NCBI RefSeq assembly: GCF_030264275.1
Contig: NZ_CP127165.1
Coordinates: forward strand, 856,001 to 920,000
Direction of reading: 5' to 3'
DNA length: 64,000 nucleotides
Origin: Marivivens sp. LCG002
Lineage (GTDB): Bacteria > Pseudomonadota > Alphaproteobacteria > Rhodobacterales > Rhodobacteraceae
Shown here: positions 12,436 to 25,420 of the stretch, piece by piece
Position numbering within the stretch: the first letter of the stretch is position 1
How the letters are laid out: every line of letters starts with the position of its first letter
Notes under the pieces: model-generated
Told to the model about the DNA's origin: nothing
The model's input: the letters and a program-made list of their open reading frames with translations, nothing else
The model's database searches: none
Program-made: the position numbers and the translations under genes

Positions 12436-13038
12436 ATGTCTGACGCACTTAACGAACTCGGCGCGCTTCTCGAACTCAAGCGCAATGACGCGGTCCTCGG
12501 TTACGAGGTGTCCTTTGGCGAGCTGACCGTCGATGTCGCGCCTGCCCATCTTGTGGCGTTCGTGGAATTCCTCAAGGCCGACAGCAATTGCCAGTTTTCG
12601 TCGCTTGTCGACATCACGGCGGTTGACTATCCGGGCCGCGCCAAGCGCTTCGACGTGGTTTACCACTTCTTGTCGATGTATCAGAACCACCGCATCCGTC
12701 TTCGCGTCTCTGTGCGTGAAGAGGATATGGTGCCTTCGATCGTCGAGGTTCACCCTTCGGCCAACTGGTTCGAGCGTGAAGTCTTCGATATGTTCGGTAT
12801 CCTTTTCTCGGGCCATCCCGACCTGCGCCGCATTCTGACGGATTATGGTTTCCGCGGGTATCCGCTCCGCAAGGACTTCCCGACCACCGGCTACACCGAA
12901 GTTCGCTATGACGAAGCGCAAAAGCGCGTTGTCTACGAACCCGTCAAGCTGGTTCAGGAATACCGTCAGTTCGACTTTATGAGCCCGTGGGAAGGTGCCG
13001 AATACATCCTCCCCGGTGACGACAAGGCCAAGGCCTGA
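12436..13038 (+). CDS. nuoC: NADH-quinone oxidoreductase subunit C
   Basis: A 200-residue 30-kDa-type subunit of the Complex I connecting module. The signature ERE(V/A)FDMFGI appears as [12 protein letters not shown], followed by [14 protein letters not shown] and GYPLRKDFP. It is separate from nuoD, unlike the fused NuoCD of enterobacteria. Only four bases separate its stop from the inserted sulfotransferase gene, so nuoC and nuoD are physically split by that gene. Confidence 0.96.
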
Positions 13039-13042
13039 TCCG

Positions 13043-13945
13043 ATGACCGCTCAAACCCTCCTTTACTGTGTAGGCGCGACAAAGGCAGGCACGTCCTGGC
13101 TTTACCGCGTTCTGCACGATCATCCGGAGTGCAAACTCCGTGATGTGAAGGAGGCGCATTATTGGGACACCATGGGTCCCAAGATGCAGGCGAACCAGAC
13201 CGCTGCTTTCGACCGCCGCATTGCCGAATTCACGATGATGCAGGTGCGTGCCGAAGTGAACGGCAACACCGCACGCGCCGAGAATCTTGCGCTCCAGATC
13301 GACGAACTCGCCCGTCTGCGTGACGTGATCGCGGCAAGCCGTTCGGATGACGCGGCCTATTGGGAGTGGCTGTCGCGTGATGCGGAAGGGGCCAAGCTCA
13401 TTGCCGATATGACCCCGAGCTATGCTCTGGTGAACGGTGATATGCTCAAGCGCATGCTGGCGCTGCGCCCCGTGACCAAGGTCGTCTATCTGATCCGCGA
13501 CCCGCTTGCCCGTCTGTGGAGCCATGTGCGCATGACCGTGACCCGCTCGGACGATGACAGTGACGCAAGCTTTGACGAACGCTCGAACGCTGTTCTGGCT
13601 TCGGTGATCCGCGAAGGCGCACAGAAACACATTACCAAGCGCGGTGATTATGCCGCCGTGATCGAGAAGCTGCGCCGCATTGTGCCTGCATCCGATCTGA
13701 TGATCGAATTTGCCGAGAACCTCTTTACCGCAGAAGGGTGGGCCCGTATGTGCCGCTTTCTCGGGATTACGGACCTCGGCGTAGACCAGACCCGTAAAGT
13801 GCACGAGGGCAATCGCGCCCGCCTGCACGAGGATTTGGCCGTAGAAGCGGTCAGGTTCTTGAAAGATCAATACGAATGGGTGGCAAAACATGTCGCCCCC
13901 CTGCCGCAAGAGTGGCAGGCCAACCTTGCGAGGGTACGCGCATGA
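13043..13945 (+). CDS. Sulfotransferase family protein inside the nuo operon
   Basis: A 300-residue PAPS-dependent sulfotransferase-like protein. The 5'-phosphosulfate loop is [10 protein letters not shown] (11-20), with K14 as the expected catalytic lysine. The DMTPSY segment is at about 122-127, and the 3'-phosphate motif [15 protein letters not shown] is at about 147-161. It has no signal peptide or clear membrane helix, so it should be cytosolic. The start at 13043 lies four bases after nuoC, and its stop overlaps the nuoD start as ATGA, so its translation is tied to Complex I. The acceptor substrate is unknown. Codon use looks like that of its neighbours. Confidence 0.85.
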
Positions 13946-15492: not shown

Positions 15493-16572
15493 ATGCTTCG
15501 CCGCCTTCACCACGAACAGCCCGAGAGCTTTGCCTTTACCCCTGCCAACCAAGCATGGGCCGAGGGCCAGATCACCAAATATCCCGAAGGTCGTCAGGCC
15601 TCGGCGATCATTCCGTTGCTGTGGCGCGCACAGGAGCAAGAGGGTTGGCTGACCCGTCCCGCGATCGAATACGTTGCGGATATGCTCGGCCTCGCCTATA
15701 TCCGCGCATTGGAAGTGGCTTCGTTCTACTTCATGTTCCAGCTCCAGCCGACGGGTTCGATCGCGCATATCCAGATTTGCGGCACGCTATCCTGTATGCT
15801 CTGCGGGGCAGAGGATCTTGTCGCGGTCTGCAAGGAAGCGATCAACGAAAAGCCGCATACGCTTTCCGCCGACGGCAAATTCTCTTGGGAAGAGGTGGAA
15901 TGCCTCGGGTCCTGCACCAACGCGCCGATGGCGCAGATCGGCAAGGATTACTACGAGGATCTGACCGCCGACAAACTCCGCGCACTCCTCAAGGATCTTG
16001 CCGCGGGCAAGGTTCCGACCCCTGGTCCGCAGAACGGCCGTTATGCAGCCGAGCCGCTGTCGGGTCTGACCTCGCTGACCGAGCACGAAAGCGGTCGTCA
16101 CCAGTTCAATGCAAGCGCCCAGCTGGCCACCGACATCGGTGATACGGTCAAGCGCATCGACGGCACCGAAGTTCCGATCCTGACCCCTTGGGTCAAAGGT
16201 GCGGCCAAGGCGGCGCCGAAGGCTGCTCCCAAGGCCGAAGCCAAACCGGCAGCAAAGCCTGCAGCCAAAGCCGCAGCGCCGAAAGCAGAAGCAGCCGAAG
16301 CCCCCAAAGCCGAAGCCGTTGTTGCCGAGAAAAAGCCCCGCACCATGAGCGCCCCGCGCAAAGCAGGTGCCGACGATCTCAAGCGTATCTCGGGCGTCGG
16401 TCCCAAGCTCGAAGCTCTCTTGAACGAAATGGGTTTCTGGCACTTCGACCAGATCGCAAAATGGACCTCGGAAGAGATCGCTTGGGTTGATGCCCGTCTC
16501 AAGTTCAAGGGCCGTATCGAGCGCGATGATTGGGTCGGACAGGCCACTCAATACGCCGAAGAAGGCAAATAA
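15493..16572 (+). CDS. nuoE: NADH-quinone oxidoreductase subunit E with C-terminal helix-hairpin-helix-like extension
   Basis: The first 175 residues or so are the 24-kDa subunit with a thioredoxin-like fold and a 2Fe-2S cluster bound by C96, C101, C137 and C141 ([17 protein letters not shown]). At 359 residues it is about twice the usual bacterial length. Residues 236-285 are an Ala/Lys/Pro-rich linker, and residues 291-358 form a compact domain starting [18 protein letters not shown], which looks like a helix-hairpin-helix fold. A near-copy of that domain ends the next gene. A terminator-like hairpin follows. Confidence 0.95.
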
Positions 16573-16590
16573 TCGTCAAAATGTGATGCA

Positions 16591-16613
16591 AAGGCCCCAA
16601 TTCGGGGCCTTTC
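16591..16613 (+). terminator. Terminator-like hairpin after nuoE
   Basis: An 8-bp stem (AAGGCCCC with GGGGCCTT) closes a five-base loop, followed by TCTCTT. It lies 18 bases after the nuoE stop and within the nuo cluster. The following 126 bases up to the next start contain no gene and may hold a second promoter. Confidence 0.6.
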
Positions 16614-16739
16614 TCTTACACCTTAGGCGCGTAGCGGTAAGAAATTATTCAAACGCCATGACATATGCTCTAGCATAACTCTCGTAAGGTTATCCCGAAT
16701 AAGAACCGATAACCACAATAGGGACTAAGGAGAAGTGTA

Positions 16740-17693
16740 ATGGCGGAAACTAACAACTGTCCAAAGGGATGCTGGATCGCAGGCATCGTTCTTGGAATTA
16801 TCGCGTTCTTTGTGCTCAAAGGACCGATGCACTGGGGGCTCCTCTGGGCTCTGATCGGCGGGATCGTGATCGCTTTGATCTGTGCCTATGTGCTCAAGTA
16901 TTTCTTCTGCACGGCGTCTGATGCGACCCAATCCTCTTCCAGTGTGGCCGCCCCCATGGCGTCAGGCTCTGCGTCGAATTCTGCGACAGTGTCGAGCGCG
17001 GCACCGGCCAAGGCCATGGCCGACACCAGCGCGAGCGAAAGCGCCGCCGAAGCTGCACCTGCGGCCAAGGCCGAAGCCGCAGCGCCCGCCGCTGCCACCA
17101 CATCGTCCGAGCCTTTGATCAAGCCCTCCAAGCCGCTCAAGGGCGAAGAGGAACTTGCGGCCGCCAAGGGCGACTGGAAATACGAAGCCGCCCCGGCAGC
17201 TTCCGTTCCCGCCGAGCCGAAAGCCAAGAAAGCTGCTGCGCCGAAGGCCGAGAAAGCGCCTGCCAAGGCCAAGGCCGAAAAGGCTCCTGCCAAGGCCAAG
17301 GCTGAAAAAGCGCCAGCCAAAGCCAAGGCGCCCGCCAAGGCAAAAGCTCCTGCGAAAGCTGCCGAAGCCCCCGTCGTGGATGACGCTGCGGTAGAGGCTG
17401 CGGGTGCAGGCAAAAAGCCGCGCGGTCTCAAAGAGCCCCGCAAAGGGCAGGCCGACGATCTCAAGCTGATCGAAGGGATCGGGCCGGTGCTTGAAAAGCT
17501 GTGCAATGATCTCGGGATCTATCACTACGACCAGATCGCGAAATGGGGTCCCGACGAGGTTGCGTTCATGAATCAGAACATGCCGCGCTTTCGTGGTCGC
17601 GTCAGCCGCGACAAATGGGTTGCACAGGCGCGTCTGATCGGCGAGGTGGGGATTGAAGAATTCCTCGAACGCGCCAAAACCAATAACTACTGA
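16740..17693 (+). CDS. Membrane-anchored protein with Ala/Lys/Pro-rich linker and C-terminal helix-hairpin-helix-like domain
   Basis: A 317-residue protein in three parts: two hydrophobic segments at about 12-27 and 33-56, a long low-complexity region (60-235) with KAEKAPAKA repeats, and a C-terminal domain (239-317) starting DDLKLIEGIGPVLEKL. The last part closely matches the C terminus of NuoE, including the shared [16 protein letters not shown] core. AAGGAG lies about ten bases before the ATG. Its place between nuoE and nuoF suggests a role near Complex I, for example in anchoring or assembly, but this is inference; homologues are known only as operon frames without function. Confidence 0.8.
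   Translation: MAETNNCPKGCWIAGIVLGIIAFFVLKGPMHWGLLWALIGGIVIALICAYVLKYFFCTASDATQSSSSVAAPMASGSASNSATVSSAAPAKAMADTSASESAAEAAPAAKAEAAAPAAATTSSEPLIKPSKPLKGEEELAAAKGDWKYEAAPAASVPAEPKAKKAAAPKAEKAPAKAKAEKAPAKAKAEKAPAKAKAPAKAKAPAKAAEAPVVDDAAVEAAGAGKKPRGLKEPRKGQADDLKLIEGIGPVLEKLCNDLGIYHYDQIAKWGPDEVAFMNQNMPRFRGRVSRDKWVAQARLIGEVGIEEFLERAKTNNY
17244..17360 (+). repeat. In-frame KAEKAPAKA-type tandem repeat
   Basis: Residues 169-207 of the membrane protein consist of about three KAEKAPAKA units followed by two KAPAKA units. At DNA level the copies are similar but not identical (27- and 18-base units), so the repeat is maintained mainly at protein level. Confidence 0.75.
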
Positions 17694-17935: not shown

Positions 17936-19219
17936 ATGCTCAAGGATCAGGACCGCATTTTCACCAACATCTACGGTATGCACGAGCGCACGCTTAAGGG
18001 TGCGATGGCTCGTGGCCACTGGGATGGGACAGCGAACATCATCAAAAAAGGCCGCGACTGGATCGTCGACGAGATGAAAGCCTCGGGTCTGCGTGGCCGT
18101 GGCGGCGCTGGCTTCCCGACCGGTCTCAAGTGGTCGTTCATGCCCAAGGAATCGGACGGTCGTCCTTCGTATCTCGTCATCAACGCCGACGAATCCGAGC
18201 CGGGCACCTGTAAAGACCGTGAAATCATGCGTCACGATCCGCACACCCTGATCGAAGGCGCGCTGATCGCGTCTTTCGCTATGGGTGCGCATGCGTGCTA
18301 CATCTATATCCGCGGTGAATATATCCGCGAAAAAGAAGCGCTCCAGAACGCCATCAACGAGGCGTATGATGCTGGGCTTCTCGGGAAAAACGCCGCCAAG
18401 TCGGGCTGGGATTTCGATCTCTATCTGCACCACGGGGCAGGCGCCTATATCTGCGGCGAAGAAACCGCTCTCATTGAATCGCTCGAAGGCAAAAAGGGCA
18501 TGCCCCGCATGAAGCCGCCGTTCCCGGCTGGCGCGGGTCTCTATGGCTGCCCGACCACTGTGAACAACGTCGAATCGATTGCTGTCGTGCCGACCATTCT
18601 GCGTCGCGGTGCATCGTGGTTCTCGTCCTTCGGTCGCCCGAACAACGTCGGCACCAAGCTGTTCGCAATCTCGGGTCACGTCAACAATCCCTGCGTCGTC
18701 GAAGAATCGATGTCGATCACCTTTGAAGAGCTGATCGAAAAGCACTGCGGCGGCATTCGTGGCGGTTGGGACAACCTCAAGGCCGTGATCCCCGGTGGTT
18801 CCTCGGTTCCTGTGGTGCGCGGCGAAAAGATGCGCGAAGCCATCATGGACTTCGATTATCTGCGCGGCGAGCTCGGTTCGGGTCTCGGCACTGCGGCTGT
18901 GATCGTCATGGACCAGTCCACCGACATCATCAAAGCGATCTGGCGCCTGTCCAAATTCTACAAGCACGAAAGCTGCGGCCAGTGCACCCCCTGCCGCGAA
19001 GGCACGGGCTGGATGATGCGCGTGATGGAACGTCTCGTGCAGGGCAATGCCTCGGTCGAAGAGATCGATATGCTCTTCTCGGTCACCAAGCAGGTCGAAG
19101 GCCACACCATCTGTGCGCTTGGCGACGCTGCCGCTTGGCCGATCCAGGGTCTCATCCGCAATTTCCGCGACGAGATCGAGGATCGCATCAAGCACAAGCG
19201 GTCCATCGCAGCGGAATAA
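17936..19219 (+). CDS. nuoF: NADH-quinone oxidoreductase subunit F
   Basis: The 427-residue 51-kDa subunit that oxidises NADH. The NADH site is the glycine-rich [13 protein letters not shown] (51-63), the FMN site is around residues 170-210 ([17 protein letters not shown]), and cluster N3 is bound by C347, C350 and C353 (CGQCTPC) with C393. Length and motifs are standard. A hairpin with a T-run begins six bases after the stop, so transcription may be reduced here before the remaining nuo genes. Confidence 0.97.
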
Positions 19220-19273: not shown

Positions 19274-19729
19274 ATGAGCGAATTTCATCTTGCCGAATTG
19301 AACGTCGGACAATTGCTTGCCCCGATTGACGATCCCCTGGTTGCCGAGTTCAAGACCAACGTCGAACGCATCAACGGACTTGGAAAGCGCATGCCGGGTT
19401 TCATCTGGATGATGGAAGGATCGGGCGAGGGCGCGGTCGGGAACACGGGCACCGTTTTGACCGACGATCCGAAATTCATTTTCAATCTGAGCGTTTGGGA
19501 AAGTGCCGAACAGCTGGAGACCTTTGTCTTTGGAACCCTTCACAAACAGTTTTTCCAAAGACGCGCCGAGTGGTTCACAGTACTGGACAAGATGCACTTT
19601 GTCATGTGGTGGATTCCCAAAGGCCATCGGCCGACCTTCCAAGAGGCGATGGCGCGACTCGAAGATCTTCGGATGAACGGCCCCTCTGACCGCGCCTTCG
19701 GGTGGGACCAAATCCGTAACGCGAGATAA
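19274..19729 (+). CDS. DUF3291 domain-containing protein
   Basis: A 151-residue soluble protein matching the DUF3291 pattern: an early HLAELNVGQLLAPIDDP, then RINGLGKRMPGFIW, LSVWESAEQLETFVFGTLHK and the aromatic FQRRAEWF. The fold is expected to be a ferredoxin-like dimeric alpha-beta barrel, as in Antibiotic_biosynth_monooxygenase relatives; activity is unknown. It begins right after the nuoF terminator and may be transcribed from its own promoter or by read-through. Confidence 0.75.
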   Translation: MSEFHLAELNVGQLLAPIDDPLVAEFKTNVERINGLGKRMPGFIWMMEGSGEGAVGNTGTVLTDDPKFIFNLSVWESAEQLETFVFGTLHKQFFQRRAEWFTVLDKMHFVMWWIPKGHRPTFQEAMARLEDLRMNGPSDRAFGWDQIRNAR

Positions 19730-19814
19730 CGCGGCGGTTTTCGTTGCCTTCTTCTTTTCCCCCGTGCAATCCTGAATTGATTGCATGCTTTGTATTTTTA
19801 CCTAGGGGGAAGTC

Positions 19815-20228
19815 GTGGGATTCGAAGTCTATTACCCTGCATTGGGCGCTGTGGCGCTCTTTGCCATTTTGACCCAGATCGTCGCTGTGATGGCGGGGAT
19901 GGGAAAAACCAGTCGGGGACTCGTGCCGGGTTCCATGCCCGTCGCCGATTACAGCGACTGGCTCTATCGCACCAGCCGCGCATCGGGAAACGCCATCGAG
20001 ACGATGGGTATTTTTGCGGCGGTTGTCGGGGCGGCGGTCCTCGCCGGCGTCGATCCGGTGTGGGTCAACAGGCTGGCCATTGGCTCTCTTGTGTTTCGGA
20101 TCGGCATGGTCGTCACCCATATCGGAGGGATCGGCAAACCGGATCGCTCGATCAGGACCGTTTTTTACATGGGCAGTTGGCTAGCGTATACGGTGCTTGC
20201 CGTCCTGACCCTCGCACGTGTCTTTTGA
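19815..20228 (+). CDS. MAPEG family membrane protein
   Basis: A 137-residue protein with four predicted hydrophobic segments. The family pattern is seen in YYPALGAVALFAILTQ, then the polar RTSRASGNAIET loop with the conserved N in the second helix, and LVFRIGMVVTHIGG. MAPEG proteins include glutathione-linked enzymes and many uncharacterised bacterial members. The GTG start at 19815 is supported by AGGGGGA at 19804-19810. It has no known link to Complex I. Confidence 0.8.
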   Translation: MGFEVYYPALGAVALFAILTQIVAVMAGMGKTSRGLVPGSMPVADYSDWLYRTSRASGNAIETMGIFAAVVGAAVLAGVDPVWVNRLAIGSLVFRIGMVVTHIGGIGKPDRSIRTVFYMGSWLAYTVLAVLTLARVF

Positions 20229-20329
20229 GATCGGCGGAAATTCGGCAACCGGAATGGTTTTTGCGCGTTGTTATTGAATAGCAAGGCAGAAAGCGCCACA
20301 TCACGGCCAAGAGTTTCTGGAGAAAAACA

Positions 20330-20728
20330 ATGCGTTTGCAGGCAATCCTTTTGTGTTCGGCGATCTTTGCGGCCCCGCTTTATGCCGAGCCGACCAAGCC
20401 CTTGGGCGAAGTGACCGAAATCCGTGAAAGTCTTCTCGCTGTCGGGATGGCCTATCGGATCACCGAGAAATGCGCGAACCTTCACCCGCGCTATATCAAG
20501 GGTATCAGTTACCTTAATGCCATCAAGAACCGCGCCCGCGAGCTGGGGTATTCCGATGCCGCCATCGAAGCCTATGTGAATTCGCCGCAGGAAAAACAGG
20601 CGCTCGAGGCCGAGGGCGTGCGCCGTCTTGCCGAAAAGGGAGCCTCTGGCGACGCGGGCGAGGCCTATTGCAAGGTCGGTCGCTCGGAAATCGAACAGGG
20701 CACGCTGATCGGTGGCTTCTTGTGGTAG
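20330..20728 (+). CDS. DUF5333-like exported protein
   Basis: A 132-residue protein with an N-terminal signal peptide, likely cut after LYA near residue 19. The mature part is helical, with YRITEKCANLHPRYIKG and CKVGRSEIEQGTLIG; the two cysteines may pair in the periplasm. It resembles the DUF5333 family seen in Rhodobacteraceae. It is the second exported small protein in the nuo cluster, and its last codons overlap a possible tiny membrane-protein gene. Confidence 0.75.
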   Translation: MRLQAILLCSAIFAAPLYAEPTKPLGEVTEIRESLLAVGMAYRITEKCANLHPRYIKGISYLNAIKNRARELGYSDAAIEAYVNSPQEKQALEAEGVRRLAEKGASGDAGEAYCKVGRSEIEQGTLIGGFLW

Positions 20729-24515: not shown

Positions 24516-25010
24516 ATGACGCAGATCGATTACGGCCGCGCGGCCAAATACTTCCTGCTTTCGGATTTCATCGTCGGTTTCAAACTGGGCCTGAAGTATT
24601 TCTTCTCGCCCAAGTCGACGATCAACTATCCGCACGAAAAGGGCCCGCTGTCGCCGCGTTTCCGCGGTGAACATGCGCTGCGCCGCTATCCCAACGGGGA
24701 AGAGCGCTGCATCGCATGTAAGCTTTGTGAAGCCGTGTGCCCCGCACAGGCGATCACCATCGACGCCGAACCCCGCGAAGACGGCTCGCGCCGCACCACG
24801 CGCTATGACATCGACATGACCAAGTGCATCTACTGTGGTTTCTGTCAGGAAGCGTGCCCCGTGGACGCCATCGTCGAAGGTCCGAATTTCGAATTCTCGA
24901 CCGAGACCCGCGAAGAGCTGTTCTATGACAAGGAAAAACTCCTTGCCAACGGTGAGCGCTGGGAAGCCGAAATCGCCCGTAACCTTGAAATGGATGCGCC
25001 CTACCGATGA
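24516..25010 (+). CDS. nuoI: NADH-quinone oxidoreductase subunit I
   Basis: A 164-residue ferredoxin-like subunit carrying two 4Fe-4S clusters (N6a and N6b) that lead electrons to NuoB. The ligands are C65, C68, C71 with C114, and C104, C107, C110 with C75, from the two motifs [12 protein letters not shown] and [12 protein letters not shown]. It starts three bases after nuoH, and its stop overlaps the next gene as ATGA. Confidence 0.97.
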
Positions 25011-25420
25011 GCACTCCTACGAACCCCTTCGAGGCTATGATGAAAGTCGGACAGGATTGGGCCAAGACGCTTAATCCTGCTCTCGAGTCTTTCATGCCCA
25101 AGGGTTTCGAGACCATGTGGCCGACCATGTCCGCAGAGATGATGGAAGCCATGATGGGCAAGACCTTTAACCCCGAGGGGCTTGATGCAAAGTCGCGTCT
25201 GCTTCTCACCTTGCACGGGCTGACCATCATGGGCGCCCAAGCAGAAAGCCAAGTCCGTCTTACCGTGCGCCACGCACGCGAGGCGGGGGCGACCAAACAG
25301 GAAATCGCCGAGACCATCGCGCAGGCTGCGATGTTCGGAGGCGTTCCAGCAATGACCAAAGCTATGGAACTCGCAACCGAGGCCATGGCAGAGGGAACTG
25401 ATAAGGACCGGGACGAATGA
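25007..25420 (+). CDS. Carboxymuconolactone decarboxylase (AhpD-like) family protein in the nuo operon
   Basis: A 137-residue helical protein whose second half fits the CMD fold: [49 protein letters not shown]. The first 55 residues are methionine-rich (for example EMMEAMMGK). It has no cysteine at all, so the CxxC redox pair of AhpD-type peroxidase partners is absent. Both ends overlap nuoI and nuoJ by ATGA, so translation is coupled to Complex I subunits. A structural or assembly role is possible, but there is no direct evidence. Confidence 0.8.

Follow-up and report, generated by a model that had tools for sequence, protein, structure and literature searches.

Evolutionarily coupled C-terminal tails of NuoE and of a protein-O homologue encoded beside it in the family of Marivivens sp. 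LCG002

In the genome of Marivivens sp. LCG002, a gene for a membrane-anchored protein lies between nuoE and nuoF, and its product ends in a domain resembling the C-terminus of NuoE. The question raised by this locus, situated in an analysed stretch of 64,000 nucleotides (the window), is what two such tails do in or beside complex I. The initial annotation regarded them as helix-hairpin-helix-like twins that might bind each other and tether or order parts of complex I.

The nuoE gene (15493–16572, plus strand) encodes a 2Fe-2S thioredoxin-like complex I subunit of 359 aa (PF01257, 2.2e-50, aa 25–169), which scores 587 bits against PRK12373, the NCBIfam equivalog model of tailed NuoE (cut-off 514). 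The protein shows nothing unusual in its first 230 or so residues, which are followed by an Ala/Lys/Pro-rich linker recognized from its sequence (about aa 231–290; 16183–16362, plus strand) and by the tail (about aa 291–359; 16363–16569, plus strand), assigned to a helix-hairpin-helix domain by alignment, modelling and fold search. Modelled alone, this tail forms five short helices with a pLDDT of 86. The nuo cluster also harbours a sulfotransferase-like gene (Sulfotransfer_3, 2.1e-11) at 12995–13945, directly upstream of nuoD, as well as, among nuo genes at 19274–20728 and 25007–25420, genes for DUF3291, MAPEG, DUF5333 and carboxymuconolactone decarboxylase-like proteins.

The adjacent gene (16740–17693, plus strand) encodes a protein of 317 aa and is followed by nuoF (17936–19219, plus strand; above the cut-offs of PRK13596 and TIGR01959), which anchors the syntenic interval on its downstream side. 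Gene order, the N-terminal profile and the fold identify the 317-aa protein as a homologue of protein-O of Dinoroseobacter shibae, a two-helix subunit located between the reaction centre and the LH1 ring, whose gene likewise lies between nuoE and nuoF and whose function its authors called obscure (PMC12079452). In a phmmer search against PDB sequences the window protein matched 8yy9_O (1.7e-26) and 9wqv_a (2.8e-26). Since the tail supplies most of the score to 8yy9_O, the hairpin of which alone yields just 2 bits, the hairpin was tested by itself with a profile built without the window copy and without the D. shibae copy (L092). This profile recognized both omitted hairpins (window, 53.4 bits, 8.5e-16; L092, 56.2 bits, 1.1e-16), while 200 shuffles of the window hairpin reached 9.6 bits at most. 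The protein encoded by L092 is identical to 8yy9_O (239/239 residues), hence the L092 genome is that of D. shibae or carries an identical copy.

The two-helix membrane anchor proposed in the initial annotation is borne out by the model, in which helices 4–27 and 34–60 mostly exceed a pLDDT of 90. The membrane hairpin (aa 4–60; 16749–16919, plus strand), delimited by model, structural alignment and profile, carries a CxxxCW motif at aa 7–12 and Cys57. It is joined by an Ala/Lys/Pro-rich low-confidence linker of about 170 residues (aa 61–231; 16920–17432, plus strand; pLDDT block means 47–62, one 71) to a helix-hairpin-helix tail (about aa 232–317; 17433–17690, plus strand; phmmer, BLASTP, model) that is, like the hairpin, mostly modelled above 90. 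With this model, the top three Foldseek matches are the RC-LH1 chains 9wqv_a, 9lts_A and 8yy9_O (E 0.26–0.51); neither this model nor that of the NuoE tail returned anything at E 0.001. Structural alignment of the window hairpin with 8yy9_O gave a Z-score of 7.3 and 1.1 Å over 52 residues at 31 % identity; this Z-score is equalled by unrelated helical hairpins, but those fit at 3 Å or more. Cys7 and Cys57 correspond in position to Cys10 and Cys59 of the D. shibae protein, an equivalence that we infer from how the ends align and from the spacing within CxxxCW, and may form the disulfide across the hairpin ends regarded as a protein-O trait. Among 91 protein-O hairpins, 57 (window included) have a Cys at each end and 27 at neither. 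The window genome (99.96 % complete) contains no match to the reaction-centre family PF00124, and thus its protein-O homologue cannot be an RC-LH1 subunit here. Since the family is known from reaction centres and this host is devoid of them, the pair of NuoE and protein-O probably serves a more general purpose.

The likeness of the two tails noticed in the initial annotation reflects homology. NuoE residues 292–358 and residues 237–317 of the neighbour are 51 % identical over 72 aa (BLASTP: 37/72 identical, 51/72 similar, E 7e-28), and their local alignment score of 204 far exceeds that of 2000 shuffles (mean 24.4, sd 4.6, maximum 51). On the DNA, the homologous tails start at 16366 (NuoE) and 17448 (neighbour) and extend to 16569 and 17690. 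The suggested search for a third copy, conducted genome-wide with the NuoE tail, retrieved only NuoE, the neighbour and one weak match (E 0.1, 29 % over 34 aa) in a 417-aa open reading frame reading as DNA polymerase IV. The twin-domain observation as such is known, since the likeness of the protein-O tail to NuoE C-termini has already been published for D. shibae (PMC12079452). Literature searches on helix-hairpin-helix together with NuoE found no paper, and those on the tail found no mention of 41 kD complex I or of PhaH among the papers listed.

The designation helix-hairpin-helix-like holds at the level of fold. Among solved structures, the NuoE tail model resembles the helix-hairpin-helix domains of NusA (C-terminal), RadA (N-terminal) and Pol IV (Z 4.8–7.4), followed by SAM domains and the LEAFY oligomerisation domain (Z about 4). 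None of the Pfam curated cut-offs was reached by the window tails; for tails of relatives, HHH_5 gave 26.6 bits (cut-off 27; L339) and IMS_HHH 25.1 bits (cut-off 24.4; L274). COG3743 (H3TH) is presumably the same domain as the tail of NuoE and protein-O.

Carriers of this type of tail include NuoE, the ribosomal proteins L21, S2 and L27 (the latter at L285, 928–1704; Pfam Ribosomal_L27, 8.4e-39) and single-helix anchors, and some proteins contain it two to four times; a PhaH carrier was not confirmed among the tailed proteins examined. A further frame of 872 aa (L378, genome G047) starts with a hydrophobic helix and has four consecutive tail matches, one of which is interrupted by a stop codon. 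The module was present in 29 of 289 genomes drawn from the class and in 117 of 397 drawn from the phylum, three of the latter from outside the class (E 1e-6 to 1e-8). Seven plasmid records contain the tail (four Sinorhizobium and one each of Shinella, Rhizobium and Methylobacterium), while phage records contain no relatives at E 0.01. Judging from the models, the tail is best described as a mobile alphaproteobacterial C-terminal module, i.e., a helix-hairpin-helix domain on a flexible linker.

Due to its fold and its ribosomal carriers, a tether to nucleic acid is a serious rival, albeit a somewhat unlikely one: through their tails, ribosome, complex I and membrane anchor would each be tied independently to nucleoid DNA or RNA, and the two nuo tails would not need to cooperate. 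Helix-hairpin-helix domains related to DNA or RNA are common among the fold neighbours, L21, S2 and L27 all bear the tail, and the linkers of NuoE and the protein-O homologue in the window have net charges of +7 and +8. In addition, a COG3743 'H3TH' match was reported on a Halomonas PHA synthase, together with a relative showing a histone H1-like match (PMC8686332). However, the tails are not basic, with median net charges in the family of −1 (NuoE) and 0 (others), the family NuoE linker is likewise at −1, and the NusA-type match 6ib8 is a protein–protein complex.

The distribution of both tails was surveyed in 150 genomes (149 genera) of the window's family. The tail was found in 137 of them and reaction-centre L/M proteins in 58. 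NuoF was detected at E 1e-150 in 149 genomes; the remaining one (G128) lacks a match at this threshold, and its tailed contig was used. The regions read thus comprised the DNA upstream of nuoF (148 genomes), the tailed contig of G128 and the window itself. The NuoE core was present in 148 of 150, and the two others were dropped (L152, and L155, which is cut by the end of its contig). Within the family, the tails known so far lie mostly at nuo (227 in the fetched regions versus 349 genome-wide by single-sequence search). Protein-O was counted only if located in the nuoE–nuoF interval and tailed, by which tail-less or moved copies are missed. On this basis, 82 of the 148 nuo intervals encode both tails, 40 the NuoE tail only, 10 protein-O only and 16 neither. 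An N-terminal hydrophobic segment is present in 91 of the 92 neighbours, the exception having an unclear start (L171).

These counts bear directly on the notion that mutual binding of the tails within complex I orders its parts. The adjacency of the genes and their coupled evolution would agree with such a role; however, in 66 of the 148 genomes the interval is devoid of one or both tailed genes (40 of protein-O only, 10 of the NuoE tail only, 16 of both), with nuoE and nuoF retained. In Paracoccus denitrificans, NuoE is tail-less, and other accessory subunits are named for its complex I, the solved structure of which was called turnover-ready by its authors (PMC11522691). The tails are therefore dispensable for complex I, as evident from the 16 genomes with neither and from the P. 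denitrificans NuoE resolved without one. Loss of one domain in many relatives with normal complex I, which the initial annotation had named as evidence against its proposal, is thus largely borne out, judged by the retention of nuoE and nuoF, and the proposed ordering of complex I parts is further weakened by the homology of the neighbour to protein-O, reported in RC-LH1 and not found reported in complex I. Altogether, we regard ordering inside complex I as very unlikely.

Of the 57 phototrophs, 42 have protein-O at nuo, compared to 50 of the 91 non-phototrophs (Fisher p 0.025), but its association with phototrophy is not significant on the NuoE tree (p 0.14). The family is not confined to phototrophs, and with 50 non-phototrophic holders RC-LH1 cannot be its sole job. 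The NuoE tail shows the opposite pattern, being rarer in phototrophs (42/57) than in non-phototrophs (80/91; Fisher p 0.044, tree model p 0.028). A restriction of protein-O to pufC-type phototrophs was ruled out (16/23 pufC-only and 24/31 pufX-only phototrophs versus 50/91 non-phototrophs). The Cys pair occurs in 13 of 16 pufC-only, 7 of 24 pufX-only and 37 of 50 non-phototroph copies.

Among the 15 of 57 phototrophs without protein-O at nuo, one (G145) has the gene elsewhere (L375, 1477–2094), 35 bases after a gene reading as dxs; it shares its contig and strand with pufL, pufM and pufX and lies within about 5 kb of them. The hairpin profile recognizes its product at 2.8e-12, compared to 0.016 or worse for four single-anchor controls. 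No protein-O was seen in the other 14, one frame being unreadable (L372, G142); they carry tails on NuoE, L21 or single anchors, and five are without any tail. The puf-region gene of G145 supports a real link of protein-O to RC-LH1.

One may accordingly ask whether protein-O serves RC-LH1 as a subunit for assembly or for the quinone channel, with the copies of non-phototrophs representing remnants of lost photosynthesis. The placement of protein-O in RC-LH1 of D. shibae (PMC12079452), its homologue in the LH1-RC of Rhodovulum sulfidophilum (9wqv_a) and the gene near pufLMX in G145, which has none at nuo, conform to this possibility. It is nevertheless highly improbable in view of the many non-phototrophic holders and the conservation of the Cys pair among them, of the phototrophs without protein-O at nuo, and of the missing association on the tree. 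Moreover, a study of 105 Rhodobacteraceae reported that the photosynthesis cluster was transferred horizontally and that early branches were non-photosynthetic (PMC6052148), a history that would fit a protein-O older than photosynthesis in many lineages.

The tails of NuoE and protein-O form one domain family, as the initial annotation had indicated for the window pair, and across the surveyed genomes they are evolutionarily coupled. Their presence is associated (Fisher p 0.008; 148 genomes), and on the NuoE tree a dependent model outperforms an independent one (LR 15.2, p 0.004), with a modelled loss rate of the NuoE tail of 0.19 without and 0.02 with protein-O; some rates of the dependent model are unstable, and the tree derives from NuoE alone. 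On this tree, the NuoE tail requires at least 21 changes and protein-O at least 36.

The tail sequences reveal the same coupling. In 81 genomes with both tails, identity averages 69.9 % for a genome's own pair and 65.0 % for cross pairs. Relative to cross pairs with the three nearest relatives (64.9 %), the own pair is higher in 57 of 81 genomes (p 1.5e-6), and in 53 of 77 after leaving out pairs of at least 85 %; relative to the single nearest relative it is higher in 58, lower in 22 and equal in one (p 6e-6). The window pair (52 % identical, below the between-genome mean of 65 %) is an exception to this family-wide likeness. The nearest tail to a NuoE tail (n = 81) is that of NuoE of another genome in 52 cases, protein-O of another genome in 23 and the own protein-O in 6; such mixed counts indicate that the tails of NuoE and protein-O are not cleanly separate lineages.

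Tails of L21 from 13 genomes served as control, with every other genome as reference; the L21 of G145, which would have been the fourteenth, was truncated in the region read and left uncounted. These tails form a lineage of their own (78 % identity to one another, 57 % to NuoE tails from different genomes) and show little preference for their own genome, either towards NuoE (58.5 % versus 57.0 %; own higher in 9/13) or towards protein-O (56.7 % versus 56.2 %; 6/11), while the NuoE and protein-O tails of the same set do (69.2 % versus 64.0 %; 10/11). Independent tethering to nucleic acid fails to predict a coupling of NuoE and protein-O from which L21 is absent.

Part of the likeness originates at the DNA level. 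Shared codons of the NuoE and protein-O tails amount to 58 % versus 46 % expected, and the codon excess is larger within genomes (11.6 points) than between them (7.7), indicating that gene conversion or recent copying contributes. In the extreme, the pair of one genome (G087) has 62 of 63 shared codons identical. It is to be considered whether the tails are accessory duplications with no shared function, which are copied and gene-converted when close, coupling being a by-product. Besides such near-identical pairs, the occurrence of similar tails on many unrelated bodies and a third consecutive tailed open reading frame in 11 of 148 nuoE–nuoF intervals (L049, L052, L055, L061, L062, L066, L069, L080, L084, L085, L135) agree with this explanation. 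Yet likeness persists at the protein level in genomes without additional codon excess: in the 26 of 81 that do not exceed the between-genome mean, own pairs share 68.7 % versus 64.6 % identity (20/26, p 0.0014; compared with all genomes rather than nearest relatives). Mere duplication is further opposed by 12 invariant columns across 38 NuoE and neighbour tails and by the dependence of modelled NuoE-tail loss on protein-O, and we consider it unlikely. The short body of the third tailed open reading frame looks amphipathic by eye, and in the frames tested no Pfam family covers it. An assignment of this frame as phasin was rejected, with no Pfam phasin match in ten such or similar frames and the PhaH model covering just their linker and tail.

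A different arrangement is found in family f144, presumably Rhizobiaceae, where 5 of 6 loci have, between nuoF and nuoG, a further tailed gene whose body is unrelated (L320, L321, L322, L323, L339), four of the six having been picked for two tails lying close together. The N-terminal bodies tested (L320, L322, L339) reached no Pfam cut-off, and the two nuo tails are not homogenised (5 genomes).

A tail that is dispensable, yet widely kept and coupled to protein-O, is most economically explained if both tails act in the cytoplasm on one common ligand or bind one another and thereby bring complex I close to complexes that contain protein-O; we favour this reading tentatively. The flexible cytosolic tails of NuoE and protein-O would bind one common ligand, or each other, such that complex I would be held via NuoE near the membrane complex housing the two-helix hairpin of protein-O. 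The latter complex would be RC-LH1 in phototrophs and some other complex in the window host, and the tail pair would represent a peripheral positioning device rather than a component of the core serving catalysis or assembly of complex I. Counting against a shared ligand are the occurrence of each tail alone (40/148 and 10/148), the low identity of the window pair, the absence of concerted evolution in the Rhizobiaceae-type tails, and the contribution of DNA-level homogenisation to tail likeness. The relative scarcity of the NuoE tail in phototrophs is also not predicted by a role joining complex I to RC-LH1.

More specifically, one may speculate that protein-O is a general adaptor, its hairpin docking in quinone-reducing or quinone-using complexes and its tail pairing with that of NuoE. 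If so, complex I would be physically clustered in phototrophs with RC-LH1, forming a photosynthetic-respiratory supercomplex, and its partner in non-phototrophs would be a different quinone enzyme. This is held to be quite unlikely, the more so as the NuoE tail is less common among phototrophs. Regardless, protein-O, described as a new reaction-centre subunit, is present in about half of the sampled non-phototrophs. This, together with its coupling to the NuoE tail and the single puf-region gene, raises the question whether complex I is physically linked to other alphaproteobacterial membrane complexes via a tail shared with ribosomal proteins.

The closest known counterpart of the window protein is protein-O of D. 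shibae (8yy9, 8yz2, 9jpb; PMC12079452), with which it shares the gene position between nuoE and nuoF, the N-terminal hairpin, the Cys placement, and the long linker with a NuoE-like tail. It differs in length (317 versus 239 aa) and in its host, since D. shibae protein-O resides in RC-LH1 and the window genome has no reaction centre. Chain a of 9wqv (R. sulfidophilum LH1-RC) belongs to the same family by sequence and fold, as does 9lts_A ('Protein LRC', D. shibae) by fold and by sequence to the D. shibae copy; unlike the window protein, both come from reaction-centre structures, for which (9wqv, 9lts) the literature search listed no paper. A resolved tail in 9wqv was not supported, the aligned part covering residues 5–86 of the 110 modelled in the chain. 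The window NuoE shows no notable difference from the tailed NuoE of NCBIfam PRK12373, and is unlike the tail-less NuoE of 239 residues in the solved P. denitrificans complex I. The NCBIfam models of tailed L21 (PRK12278), S2 (PRK12311) and the phasin PhaH contain the same C-terminal module attached to N-terminal bodies unrelated to NuoE and protein-O. The C-terminal domain of NusA and the N-terminal domain of RadA share the fold of the NuoE tail (Z 6.3–7.4 over 60–67 residues) at just 18–27 % identity, and such Z-scores may mean only a common arrangement.
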